The notes under the pieces are model-generated. The model ran no database searches. It had not been told where the DNA came from and saw only the letters and a program-made list of their open reading frames with translations. From Candidatus Falkowbacteria bacterium CG10_big_fil_rev_8_21_14_0_10_37_14 (GTDB lineage: Bacteria > Patescibacteriota > Patescibacteriia > Patescibacteriales > Patescibacteriaceae): a stretch of 34,155 nucleotides of DNA. Shown one piece after another: positions 13,504 to 31,935 of the stretch; within the stretch, counting starts at the first letter, position 1, and each line of letters starts with the position of its first letter. Both the position numbers and the translations under genes were made by a program. The stretch covers positions 1 through 34,155 of the forward strand of contig PFAM01000017.1 of assembly GCA_002778705.1 (NCBI GenBank). Direction: 5' to 3'.

Positions 13504-15102
13504 TTAGTCAGCGAGGCAACGGACAGAATACCCGGTCAATCGAGGGGAAGTACTGTAAGTGTTAATTCCCTGAAACTCAGTAGTTGTGTATCCCAAAAAC
13601 ACAATCCTAAAAACAGTGCTTGCAAAAAGCGTAGTTGTTATAAAAAACGTATTAGTATTTTTATCTACAAACATATTAGAAACAGAATCTTGCGCTCGAC
13701 CGCCAGCCAAAGCTGTAAAACCAGATGAATTATCAGCTCCAGTATTAGGAGCATTCCAAAGATTTAAAGATTTTATATGCCCACCGGCGACAGTATAACC
13801 ACCCAAGAAATTAGCTAGCGTTATGAATTCAGTGTGACTGGGAACATGCCAACCACTAGGACAAATACCGCGTATATTACCAGGTCCAACAGGTGTGTTA
13901 CTAGTTAAAGTTACCCCATTGACATACTGAACAGCTTCTGGCCATTGATACAAGCCACCATAAATATTACAATTGCTAACACCAGTTGCTATTTGTGCTG
14001 CATCATCTTGTTTTTTATAAGCGTAACACCATTTTTCAATGACGCCATTATCAGTTTGATCTTGTCTAGTAGTATTATCAGCCAAAGCTCCGCTAATCAT
14101 TGTGCCGACATTTAAGTTATCCTTAAACCAGCATTGATTACCGATGAGCACGGTGCGGTAATAACCACCAGTTGTTTGCGTTGTGCCATTAGCATCATAA
14201 GGACCGCCCTCTCCGGCCACCGTGTCTACGCCACAATTAAAACAAATACTTCCAATTCCAAGACAGGCACCGCCGGAACATTCCACGCCAGTTGAGCATG
14301 TGGCGCCACTCGGCTTAAGCATGGTTACTTTACCTCCAGAGCTATAAGCATTGGTGGTGGTGCCGGATTGAAAATCGGCATCTAAAGTATCCGTGGTAGA
14401 GGTTGAAGCACCAACAGCCGTTAGACTGGTGCCTGTAGTTAAATTAGCGCTTTTAGAATAGTAATTAGTCCAGGTAGTTTTATCATCCGGATGTAGCGCT
14501 ATTAAAAGTGGTGAAGCCAATCCGCTCCAATCAGTTTGTGTCCAGCCAAAAGTCATAGCGTTTAGGCGTTGAAACGAAGGTAAAGCCACGACTATTAAAA
14601 TAATTCCTATGGTTAAGGCTGTGGAAGTACCTAGTGACCAGATGGCTACTTTCTTCTTATAAGTTTTGTGAAAGTCTAAAAATTCTTGCTCATAGCTTTG
14701 TTTAACTTTTTTAGTCTTAATCGCTAAGGTTTGTTTATTAGCGTCAAACTTAATGCCAATAAATAGATCAAAACTCCGCTGGGAACTGAGAAAAAGAAGC
14801 AAAAGATATTTCAAAATATCTTTATAGATTTGTCCTGTGATTAATCTTAAAGATTTACTAATAGTTAGCCAAAACTTGCTCTTAGAAGTTGTCCACAGGG
14901 ACAGAGAGATTAAATGCTCTTTAACTCGTAAATATTCTTTAGCTAAAACAGCTTCAGCAAATGGTAAGCTAATATCTTTGTGATAGGCTAAAAGAGCCCA
15001 AAAATTAAGTAAACTTAAAAATAATAAAACAAAAGTCCAACCATGGACCAAACGCCATAATAGTAAAAAATATAAAAAAAACAGCACTAAAATCAGCGCC
15101 AA
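13504..15102 (-). CDS. Membrane-anchored surface protein with FISUMP (major paralogous) domain
   Basis: This protein of about 532 residues has hydrophobic N-terminal segments (ALILVLFFLYFLLLW and FVLLFLSLLNFWALLAY), a basic, probably cytoplasmic stretch (about 45-150), a membrane segment at about 155-178 (LGTSTALTIGIILIVVALP), then a Ser/Thr/Gly-rich outer region. From about residue 300 there is a Fibrobacter-paralogous (FISUMP) domain: YRTVLIGNQCWFKDNLNVG, YGGLYQWPEAVQYV, GICPSGWHVPSHTEF, SSGFTALAGGR and the terminal TGYSVRCLAD. This fold is related to the C-type lectin/FGE group and is common on surface proteins. The TTG start at 15102 is the longest uninterrupted frame. The same frame runs on upstream to a better-looking ATG at 15153, but a TAA intervenes. 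Confidence 0.85.
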   Translation of the reverse strand: MALILVLFFLYFLLLWRLVHGWTFVLLFLSLLNFWALLAYHKDISLPFAEAVLAKEYLRVKEHLISLSLWTTSKSKFWLTISKSLRLITGQIYKDILKYLLLLFLSSQRSFDLFIGIKFDANKQTLAIKTKKVKQSYEQEFLDFHKTYKKKVAIWSLGTSTALTIGIILIVVALPSFQRLNAMTFGWTQTDWSGLASPLLIALHPDDKTTWTNYYSKSANLTTGTSLTAVGASTSTTDTLDADFQSGTTTNAYSSGGKVTMLKPSGATCSTGVECSGGACLGIGSICFNCGVDTVAGEGGPYDANGTTQTTGGYYRTVLIGNQCWFKDNLNVGTMISGALADNTTRQDQTDNGVIEKWCYAYKKQDDAAQIATGVSNCNIYGGLYQWPEAVQYVNGVTLTSNTPVGPGNIRGICPSGWHVPSHTEFITLANFLGGYTVAGGHIKSLNLWNAPNTGADNSSGFTALAGGRAQDSVSNMFVDKNTNTFFITTTLFASTVFRIVFLGYTTTEFQGINTYSTSPRLTGYSVRCLAD

Positions 15103-29450: not shown

Positions 29451-30290
29451 TCATACAAGTTCTAGTCGTTTTCTGATTTTATAAGTATCCCCATGGCTTA
29501 ATAATCCTCGATAAGAGCTGATGGTTTCTGGCTTGGGATTATTTTGCAGTTTTCTGATAACTCGCAGCTTGGTAACGGCTCTAAGTTGTCTGTGATGTGG
29601 AAAATGCACCCAGCCCAAGAAATCTACACCCGAAGAATAAGTCTTAATAAATAGTTTATCAGGATGTAATTCCAGTTTTAATTGTTTGGCTAAAAAATCT
29701 CTAATCAATGGAATGCAGTTTAATAATTCTTGCTTAGTGTCCGCTAAAATCACAAAATCATCAGCATAACGGATATAATATTTTAGTTTTAATTCTTGTT
29801 TAATATATCGATCAAATTCATTGAGATAGATATTGGAAAATAACTGCGAGGTTAAATTACCTAAAGGCAAGCCAACACCTACTTGCTTGCTATGAAAACT
29901 TGCCAAGATGGTTTCAATCAACCACAATACATCGGTATCTACAATTTGTCGTTTTAAGATATTCCGTAAAACAGCTTGATCAATACTGGCAAAAAATTTC
30001 CTGATATCACCTTTCAAAACATAACAAGTTTTAGTGTGATTCTTGGAAACCTTGCCGGCAAAATACTTAAAACGGTCTAAAGCTTTATGGACGCCTTTAC
30101 CGACACGGCAAGAATAACTGTCATAAATAAAGCGGCTATCAAAATAATCATAAAGCGCTTGATGCAACAGATGATGGACGAGGCGATCACGAACCGTGGC
30201 TTTATGAATGATACGGGGCTTGGGGTCGGAGATGTTAAAGACATGATAGTCATCATGACAATAAGTTTTGTTTAATAAGCTACTGTGCAA
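29451..30290 (-). CDS. DGR reverse transcriptase
   Basis: A 279-residue RT read from a TTG at 30290. Motifs in order: HKATVRDRLVHHLLH (29-43), the first catalytic aspartate in KGDIRKFFASID (D95), GVGLPLGNLTSQLFSNIYLN (138-157), YIRYADDFVIL with YADD at 175-178, HPDKLFIK and VDFLGWVHF. Most RTs read QGxxxSP in motif 4; DGR RTs read [LIV]GxxxSQ, and this one has LGNLTSQ, the diagnostic swap. Upstream to 30419 the minus strand still encodes family-like N-terminal sequence, but in broken frames (separate entry), so the track here lacks about 40 residues. Function, if active, is error-prone copying of template-repeat RNA at adenines into cDNA. It lies downstream of the template repeat and ends 56 bases before holB starts. 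Confidence 0.92.
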   Translation of the reverse strand: MHSSLLNKTYCHDDYHVFNISDPKPRIIHKATVRDRLVHHLLHQALYDYFDSRFIYDSYSCRVGKGVHKALDRFKYFAGKVSKNHTKTCYVLKGDIRKFFASIDQAVLRNILKRQIVDTDVLWLIETILASFHSKQVGVGLPLGNLTSQLFSNIYLNEFDRYIKQELKLKYYIRYADDFVILADTKQELLNCIPLIRDFLAKQLKLELHPDKLFIKTYSSGVDFLGWVHFPHHRQLRAVTKLRVIRKLQNNPKPETISSYRGLLSHGDTYKIRKRLELV

Positions 30291-30419
30291 GTTTACTAAA
30301 TTATCGGCAAGCTGTAATTAAAAATCTAAAACATCCTGCTTTCTTCGTTTGCCACACAAAAATTTTTCCCAAGTAATCAATAAATTATTTAACGCAATAA
30401 TTTTATCAAAAGTATGCAA
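30291..30419 (-). pseudogene. Frame-disrupted 5' end of the DGR reverse transcriptase gene
   Basis: In the RT frame, TTG at 30417-30419 starts HTFDKIIALNNLLITWEKF, which looks like the normal DGR-RT N-terminus. After a four-T run near 30361-30364 (five would keep frame) the conserved GKRRKQDVLDF continues in a shifted frame, meets TAA, then LQLADN. An extra T at 30299-30302 returns to the RT frame at LVNLHSSLLNKTY. In the RT frame itself a TAG at 30327-30329 blocks readthrough. So two compensating indels plus a stop separate the N-terminus from the RT domain. Confidence 0.65.
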
Positions 30420-30460
30420 CAAAACTCTTTTAGTGGACCCCCCCCCCAACGCAATTTCCT
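30414..30460 (+). other. Out-of-frame avd leader with a 10-C tract
   Basis: ATG at 30414 reads MQQNSFSGPPP, entering ten consecutive C at 30438-30447. With eleven (or eight) C the frame would join THE avd frame exactly (PPPPTQFPLVIIKTKEAYLLW). With ten it runs to a stop. This looks like the real avd start held out of frame by the homopolymer. Confidence 0.6.
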
Positions 30461-30808
30461 TTGGTTATTATTAAAACTAAAGAGGCTTATTTGCTCTGGC
30501 ATAATTTTTTAGTTAATTTAAAACGGATAGATCGATACACTGTTGGGCAACGGATTGATGACACTTTTCTTACTTTATTAGAACTGTTATTTCGCGCCAG
30601 CTTTGCTTACGACAAATTTGAGAAACTAGCTTTAATATCACAAGCCATCGGCAAGCGAGACTTACTGAATTTTTTCTTACAACTTGGCTGGGAGCATAAA
30701 ATCATTCCTCACAAAATGTATAGCGATTTAATCATTCGTTTGGATGAAATCGGGCGGATGCTCGGAGGCTGGAAAAAAAGCTTGGCAGAAAAAACTCCCG
30801 CCAAATAG
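30461..30808 (+). CDS. avd: Avd-like DGR accessory protein (four-helix bundle)
   Basis: A 115-residue, mostly helical, basic protein: VIIKTKEAYLLWHNFLVNLKRIDRYTVGQRIDDTFLTLLELLFRASFAYDKFEKLALISQAIGK, then RDLLNFFLQLGWEHKIIPHKMYSDLIIRLDEIGRMLGGWKK. The KTKEAYLLWH...YTVGQRIDDTF and L..IGRMLGGW pattern is that of the Avd/S23-related accessory proteins that form a pentameric barrel and bind the DGR RT and RNA. The TTG at 30461 is the longest open frame but has no SD; a likelier start at ATG 30414 is out of frame because of a 10-C tract. It is encoded on the strand opposite to RT, template and target, and its stop lies 20 bases before the template repeat's 3' edge. Confidence 0.82.
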   Translation: MVIIKTKEAYLLWHNFLVNLKRIDRYTVGQRIDDTFLTLLELLFRASFAYDKFEKLALISQAIGKRDLLNFFLQLGWEHKIIPHKMYSDLIIRLDEIGRMLGGWKKSLAEKTPAK

Positions 30809-30828
30809 TAGGAGAAATCAAATGAGTG

Positions 30829-30946
30829 GCGGAGACCGAACACACAGTAGTTGTCATTCCAGTCGTTCTCGAAATAGTTGAGATTGAAGTTGTAATCGTC
30901 ATCCGAATTCCGATTGATGTAGGGCACGTGATGGTTGCCATCGGCA
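30829..30946 (-). repeat. DGR template repeat (TR)
   Basis: This 118-base sequence (118 positions aligned at a constant offset of 447) matches the variable repeat at 31276-31393 with 11 differences: 30851, 30852, 30854, 30867, 30878, 30879, 30896, 30909, 30920, 30921 and 30936. All but 30921 are T on the plus strand, that is A in the minus-sense template. The template has 32 A by my count, many in AAC/AAT codons. Its 3' edge (TACTGTGTGTTCGGTCTCCGC plus one) has a single A and no mismatch, as expected of the initiation-of-mutagenic-homology segment. The ORF reading through it is not supported as a gene. Confidence 0.94.
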
Positions 30947-30950
30947 GATA

Positions 30951-31034
30951 TGCGATAAACTATCTTGGACACTGCAAGCAACGCCGGTCGCTTGTTGTAT
31001 TTTATCCGAAGCCCGGGCTCCTTAGTTTATCGCA
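30951..31034 (-). ncRNA. Structured element abutting the 5' edge of the template repeat
   Basis: Perfect 12-bp complementary arms TGCGATAAACTA (31023-31034 on the minus strand) and TAGTTTATCGCA (30951-30962) enclose 60 bases. Inside lies an 8-bp hairpin CAAGCGAC-CGGC-GTTGCTTG (30975-30994, one G:U pair) and a self-complementary AGCCCGGGCT (31010-31019). The outer stem ends 4 bases before the template repeat. This is the place where the DGR RNA is expected to carry structure. It is not a tRNA: there is no T-arm, anticodon arm or CCA pattern. Confidence 0.65.
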
Positions 31035-31184
31035 CCGACTAATCTGATTTTTTTACCAAAAGTCGCTCTCACTTGTTAAGCGTTACCTAACAAATAACTG
31101 GCTGATATTTTTAGCAAAGGCAGGACGGCATTGAGCCTTAGCCCAATATCTTAACCACTGCCTAAAATTATTTTATACAAAAAT
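31035..31184. other. Spacer between template-repeat leader and variable repeat
   Basis: No gene is supported. A small inverted repeat TTGTTA...TAACAA occurs at about 31074-31092. No convincing -35/-10 pair for the template transcript is visible on the minus strand. Confidence 0.4.
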
Positions 31185-31210
31185 AGAGCATTTGTAAATA
31201 CAAATGCTCT
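31185..31210 (-). terminator. Perfect 12-bp hairpin downstream of the DGR target gene
   Basis: AGAGCATTTGTA, two-base centre, TACAAATGCTCT. On the minus strand it is followed by ATTTTTG, so it probably terminates the target-gene transcript. It is also 65 bases beyond the variable repeat, and could act as a cruciform like those reported near DGR target sites. Confidence 0.8.
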
Positions 31211-31260
31211 AAAAAAATTCAAAGGAACTAAAGAATTAATTAGCAAAGAAGCTAAGTGTC

Positions 31261-31935
31261 TCAGGACTGTAAGTCGCGGAGACCGAACACACAGTAGACG
31301 CCATTCCAGTCGTACTCGAAATAGCCGAGATTGAAGTTGTAAGCGTCATCCGAATCCCGATTGATGCCGGGCACGTGATGGTCGCCATCGGCATACCACA
31401 AATTATCTTTCTCATCGAAAGATACCGTATATTTGTTTTTAGGAAATTCTTCCGGCTTTTGTTCAAAGACAACAGAGAGACCTTGAGCTCCAGTTAACAG
31501 AATTCTGTTTTCTGCTAATAATTGCAAAATTTCTTCAGATGATGGTGTTTCGTTTTTATTAATGAACCACATCATAGCTTCATAGGTTTTACCCGATTCT
31601 GGCTGATGGCTAACTTTATTAAAGTTAGCATCGTTTATCTTATCGTTGTAATAACCAAACTTTTGTTTATTATTCTTGGCAAATTTGGACAGTTGATTGT
31701 CGTGCTGATAATCCGCCGGCACGGTAATGTTAAAACTTTTGAAAAAAGTAAATTTCTTTGACGCCTTAACGTCTTTTAATTTCAAACCGAAAATTGCTTG
31801 AAGATTTTCTTGATACGGATTGAGAAATTGTTCAAATCCCTCAAGTGTAATGCTACCATTACGCAATTTTTGTAAAAAATCAATTTGCAAACCAGCTAAT
31901 TTAGCCGTTTCTGCTTCGATGTTTGAACTCTTCAT
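31261..31935 (-). CDS. DGR target protein with C-terminal variable repeat
   Basis: A 224-residue protein from the ATG at 31935, chosen because AGGAA lies about 9 bases upstream and the promoter at 31995-32023 would start transcription inside the longer frame from 32004. Residues 1-60 are helical (IEAETAKLAGLQIDFLQKLRNGSITLEGFEQFL), 60-180 mixed (NDANFNKV, LTGAQGLSVVFEQKPEEFPKNKYTVSFDEKDNLW). The C-terminus 182-220 is the variable repeat, in the style of C-type-lectin DGR targets ending YCVFGLR. No signal peptide or membrane segment is visible, so it is predicted cytoplasmic or dependent on another route. Variable positions by comparison with the template: 185, 190, 194, 198, 204, 208, 212 and 213. 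The fold call is inference. Confidence 0.88.
   Translation of the reverse strand: MKSSNIEAETAKLAGLQIDFLQKLRNGSITLEGFEQFLNPYQENLQAIFGLKLKDVKASKKFTFFKSFNITVPADYQHDNQLSKFAKNNKQKFGYYNDKINDANFNKVSHQPESGKTYEAMMWFINKNETPSSEEILQLLAENRILLTGAQGLSVVFEQKPEEFPKNKYTVSFDEKDNLWYADGDHHVPGINRDSDDAYNFNLGYFEYDWNGVYCVFGLRDLQS
31276..31393 (-). repeat. DGR variable repeat (VR)
   Basis: Aligns to the template repeat at offset 447 and encodes residues 182-220 of the target. Relative to the template the codons change N to D, Y to G, N to D, D to A, N to G, N to Y, D to G and N to V; none is silent. Only the T-to-G in the Y-to-G codon is not at a template adenine. Confidence 0.94.

Follow-up and report, generated by a model that had tools for sequence, protein, structure and literature searches.

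A repeat prone to slippage in the inverted avd of Patescibacteria retroelements as a candidate switch for hypermutation

A diversity-generating retroelement (DGR) of Candidatus Falkowbacteria bacterium CG10_big_fil_rev_8_21_14_0_10_37_14 carries a run of ten cytosines inside avd, and comparison with its relatives makes it quite likely that this gene is phase-variable, i.e. that slippage in the repeat flips Avd, and hence the whole of DGR diversification, between ON and OFF. Somewhat more guardedly, a large Patescibacteria lineage probably keeps DGR hypermutation under stochastic on/off control in this way, via a slippage-prone repeat in an inverted avd. The analysis started from contig PFAM01000017.1 (assembly GCA_002778705.1), whose 34,155 nucleotides are referred to here as the window, and from its following features:

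29451..30422, minus strand: DGR reverse transcriptase (RT), interrupted by a nonsense codon; start probably TTG 30422 or 30419
30318-30320, minus strand: in-frame TAA in the RT; Gln at the same place in the relative G006
30414..30808, plus strand: avd gene including its leader; ATG 30414; bAvd PF22296 (4.5e-13), phrog_3206 Avd
30414..30437, plus strand: avd leader MQQNSFSG, eight codons, open into the C tract
30438-30447, plus strand: C10 tract, putative phase-variation repeat in avd; longest G/C tract of the genome
30789..30814, minus strand: terminator-like hairpin with T run, just after the template repeat and overlapping the 3' end of the antisense avd; exact stem ambiguous
30829-30946, minus strand: template repeat (TR); 10 of its 11 differences from the variable repeat at template A, the eleventh probably a later TR mutation
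31261..31935, minus strand: DGR target gene, 224 aa, with the variable repeat at its C-terminus
31276-31393, minus strand: variable repeat (VR), in the C-terminus of the target gene

Identity and state of the retroelement

The window element is a real DGR, and a cellular one, of a Patescibacteria (CPR) bacterium. TR and VR form one repeat family of 122 nt with 90% identity, and on the minus strand, which encodes both target and RT, there are 11 mismatches in 118 positions, ten of them at template adenines (hypergeometric P = 5.9e-6, with A at 32 of the 118 positions). The coordinates and counts that an initial annotation had given for the pair from the letters alone were reproduced, as were the eight altered residues that it had reported: eight codons change from TR to VR, all of them non-synonymously (N-D, Y-G, N-D, D-A, N-G, N-Y, D-G, N-V). 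A search for further template copies, proposed there as a check, returned two matches in the 910-kb genome, the TR and the VR, and no third. Within the RT family of the window, TR/VR pairs occur in 129 of 151 loci, and 2183 of 2343 mismatches (93%) lie at template adenines against an A content of 25%, which together with the window mismatches supports the earlier call of a DGR with past adenine-specific retrohoming.

That annotation had left the single non-adenine difference without explanation. It lies at TR position 26 (T to G), where the TR codon TAC faces GGC in the VR. In two relatives that carry the same target family (G006, locus L316, and G046, locus L315), the homologous TR has AAC where the window TR has TAC, and the simplest reading is hence an A-to-T change in the window TR after the last transfer. 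If position 26 is counted as a former A, all 11 differences fall at template adenines (P = 2e-7). The change has not been copied into the VR since, which suits an element without movement from then on and agrees with dormancy.

Dormancy is also suggested by the RT. The motif LGNLTSQ, the DGR form of motif 4 noted earlier, is present here and in 134 of the 151 RTs of the family, and DGR-carrying phages are among the phage matches. The best match among solved structures is the 8ub7 group (E 1e-36), which we take to be the Bordetella phage DGR RT, as compared with 2e-14 for group II intron RTs, and this speaks against a placement in group II intron or retron clades. The open reading frame 29451-30290 that had been assigned to the enzyme does belong to a DGR-type RT, but represents only the part after the in-frame TAA; DGR-type N-terminal sequence can be read upstream of this stop (read-through: LLHTFDKIIALNNLLITWEKFLCGKRRKQDVLDF*LQLADNL). 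As the closest relatives G006, G009 and G046 have an intact RT of 344-345 aa, the window copy is probably inactive or dormant, or a strain polymorphism was sampled. The nonsense codon bears on the activity of this copy, not on its family membership. A second RT remnant with an internal TAG is found elsewhere in the same genome (G000:C19:75-239, L049). Single nonsense codons or truncation likewise occur in several RT loci of the same lineage (G005, G001, G387, G080), and loss of RT function thus recurs.

The target gene had no family match in Pfam, NCBIfam, PHROG or PDB, and its AlphaFold model (pLDDT 52.5) is too weak for judging a C-type-lectin fold. Target homologues with a DGR TR of their own occur in G006 and G046. 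A target paralogue of the window genome (G000:C2:24187-24756, L320; 39% identity over residues 4-198) lacks a TR copy, and no TR/VR pair was found around it. Furthermore, a 532-aa open reading frame at window positions 13504-15102 has an end with a FISUMP- or lectin-like appearance on visual inspection, with the TR repeat absent there; this type is sometimes related to DGR target folds.

An inverted avd and a hairpin behind the template

The initial annotation was right about the DGR and its past retrohoming but overlooked, besides the RT nonsense codon, the antisense avd and its C10 tract. The gene lies between TR and RT, antisense to TR, target and RT, and also matches NF033474 (DivGenRetAVD) at 1.4e-15, under the NCBI cut-off. 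Among loci of the RT family in the same phylum with a full avd, 151 of 153 have it on the opposite strand. In IMG/VR DGRs, avd shares the strand in 71 of 73, and the two exceptions (L210, L211) belong to the lineage of the window. The median distance from the 3' end of the TR to the avd stop codon is 16 nt in family loci. In this RT lineage, avd is hence inverted such that its 3' end overlaps the post-TR hairpin, while its 5' end overlaps or abuts the RT start. In the window itself, the start codons of RT and avd overlap on opposite strands at 30414-30422, and in relatives the first seven codons of RT (MKIQLTH) and avd (MSQLNFH) are antisense to each other.

The hairpin directly behind the TR recurs in the family. 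Of 129 loci, 92 have on the TR strand an unbroken stem of 7 bp or more with T behind it, compared with 7.7 when dinucleotides are shuffled and 5 for the avd strand; a looser scan proved too permissive, with 77 of 129 in shuffles, and the stricter one was used instead. With its T run on the TR strand, the hairpin presumably marks the end of the TR RNA, which would then be transcribed apart from the RT. A role as avd terminator was rejected, since the T run lies on the TR strand (92 versus 5).

This arrangement departs from that of the Bordetella phage BPP-1 DGR (mtd-avd-TR-brt), with which the window element shares an RT with DGR motif 4, a TR/VR pair, adenine mutagenesis, an Avd-family protein and a VR at the target C-terminus. 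In BPP-1, avd, TR and brt lie on the same strand as a single operon, TR and brt being set apart by a structured spacer (PMC12875486), whereas the window element has an antisense avd between TR and RT, a terminator-like hairpin directly after the TR, and a repeat of the phase-variation type in avd. DGR clade 2 of Roux et al. 2021 is restricted to Patescibacteria (PMC8144416). The lineage of the window resembles it in host phylum, in consisting of cellular DGRs and in having targets without recognisable domains; judged by host and features, it is very likely the same clade. Neither the terms Avd, strand and orientation nor any repeat are found in the text of that study (PMC8144416).

A repeat between leader and body of avd

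At the assembled length of C10, leader and body of the window avd are out of frame: the product started at the ATG stops after 32 aa, and the in-frame avd open reading frame (30461-30808, plus strand) begins at a TTG. As assembled, the gene thus reads OFF. Among the ten or so G/C tracts of 8 nt or more in the window genome, this is the longest. The nine others, of 8-9 nt, lie on contigs C3, C10, C11, C12, C15, C16, C18, C22 and C24 (L191-L199). Several are intergenic or near gene starts, some of them upstream of pilin-like genes, and the neighbouring genes are possibly further phase-variable ones.

Among the Patescibacteria relatives, a repeat occupies the junction of leader and avd body in 118 of 151 loci: poly-C in 99, a dinucleotide, (CT)n or (GA)n, in 18, and (CAAT)7 in one. 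The poly-C tracts range from C6 to C15 with a mode of 10. A further locus (L034) has G10 and was kept out of the count by its partial avd. G/C runs of at least 7 nt are about 158-fold denser at the junction than elsewhere in these loci (98 in ~26 kb versus 19 in ~784 kb). An assembly artefact of the window was ruled out as the origin of the tract, since more than 100 relatives have it at the corresponding site. The kind of repeat can be exchanged at one site, as in L126 with (CAAT)7 and L103 with C12, whose avd bodies are 88% identical, and its length differs between close relatives, with C15 in L039 and C7 in L060 next to an identical 150-nt flank on the leader side. In contrast, none of 71 canonical DGRs (IMG/VR) has a repeat in avd, and 70 of the 71 have an in-frame start.

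For 95 loci in which the leader was chosen by a profile blind to frame, the body follows in frame 0, 1 or 2 in 32, 36 and 27 cases (P = 0.53 versus uniform), with one genome taken per species and assembled homopolymer lengths that may err by one. The 18 loci with a leader and a non-homopolymer repeat are distributed as 5/5/8. An in-frame ATG exists in 31 of 33 loci without a repeat, compared with 42 of 118 with one (Fisher P = 8e-10). Some of the former share the leader (L079, MRQLNFSHNTNSTPPP...; L098, MNKFNFSHTYNSTPP...), fused in frame, which shows that leader and body make up the real N-terminus in those loci. Conservation of the leader was not used as proof of translation, since the argument is weakened by the antisense position of the leader relative to the RT start. 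As the 5' ends of RT and avd overlap, MSQLNFH comes close to a reverse complement of MKIQLTH at the start of the RT. On the RT tree, the kind of repeat requires 26 changes versus 46.8 +/- 1.9 after shuffling and is hence inherited, whereas the avd frame requires 49 versus 45.0 +/- 2.7 and has no phylogenetic signal. The bodies of OFF genes are open and intact, under purifying selection like that of ON genes (median dN/dS 0.43 versus 0.41, a rough estimate as dS is high), and the OFF state therefore looks recent or reversible. With a 5' repeat beyond chance and both ON and OFF frames present, the avd locus bears, in its sequence, the marks of a contingency gene. In having a repeat near the 5' end of the coding sequence, several unit types per site and mixed frames, it resembles simple-repeat contingency loci such as H. 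pylori sabA and the phase-variable loci of Moraxella (PMC2715451, PMC7302503). It differs in that the putatively switched gene encodes a subunit of a hypermutation machine instead of a surface antigen or methylase, and in that reversible length change is, here, predicted from assembled sequences.

Random frames across species would likewise be expected if RNA polymerase stuttered on the C tract, since a constant fraction of in-frame avd mRNA would then supply a low, fixed dose of Avd with no switching and no selection on the DNA frame. Such transcriptional slippage is improbable, although it is the strongest of the competing explanations: frames are equally mixed in the 18 dinucleotide loci and the one with (CAAT)7, and dinucleotide or (CAAT)n repeats are poor substrates for it. 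Alternatively, the repeat might act on the RT, its length tuning RT transcription or translation while avd uses another start. All loci do have it shortly before the RT start, within the 5' region of that gene, and purines predominate in most of the repeats when read on the RT strand. Yet, lengths spanning 6 to 40 nt do not resemble those of a promoter-spacer switch, the avd strand carries GA in three loci, and loci without a repeat retain the in-frame fusion of leader and avd body, which leaves this option with little probability.

A still less likely scenario has Avd starting at a TTG or GTG downstream of the tract, which would be a neutral mutational hotspot whose frame is without effect. 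Many loci offer such an in-frame codon, including TTG 30461 of the window, and Avd could start there in some of them. However, the TTG/GTG positions are not conserved, a downstream ATG is limited to 5 of 83 loci, persistence of the tract at a single site in 118 of 151 loci would not be expected under neutrality, and loci without a tract have a normal upstream ATG start. Finally, an ordinary DGR without a switch, in which the random frames are homopolymer assembly errors, is highly improbable: tracts of ~10 nt are error-prone in some sequencing technologies, but relatives differ as widely as C7 and C15, the same repeat site recurs in more than 100 species, and dinucleotide repeats also stand in the OFF frame, the mixed frames of the 18 non-homopolymer loci being beyond explanation by homopolymer sequencing error.

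A probable phase variation of avd and its consequences

A phase-variable avd would operate as follows. By the mechanism known from BPP-1 and in line with the TR/VR pattern observed here, RT and Avd would copy the TR RNA with errors at adenines, and the cDNA would overwrite the C-terminal VR of the target. Translation of Avd would begin upstream of the simple repeat and read through it, such that slipped-strand mispairing, by altering the repeat length, places Avd in frame (ON) or out of frame (OFF), presumably in a reversible manner. OFF cells would then retain their present target variant, while ON cells would make new ones. Since loss of Avd abolishes DGR activity and retrohoming in BPP-1 (PMC12875486), a switch in avd would control hypermutation as such. 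The window copy, with both an OFF repeat and the RT nonsense codon, is probably dormant; the latter would keep the element off whatever the frame of avd.

No description of an avd switch was found in the literature on DGRs in connection with phase variation, homopolymeric tracts or slipped-strand mispairing. Two surveys (10.1093/nar/gkx1150, 10.1038/nmicrobiol.2017.45) lay beyond the scope of this search, and the inverted avd may thus have been noticed earlier.

If the proposed switch is real, these bacteria possess two nested random generators, one for when to mutate and one for what. The state of the switch could be read from metagenome reads by setting repeat length against VR diversity, and a natural system in which TR RNA, RT and avd are transcribed separately may be useful for engineered diversifiers. 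For the Patescibacteria, which are among the groups richest in DGRs, a heritable and reversible Avd switch would answer the question of how DGRs protect good target variants from further mutation.
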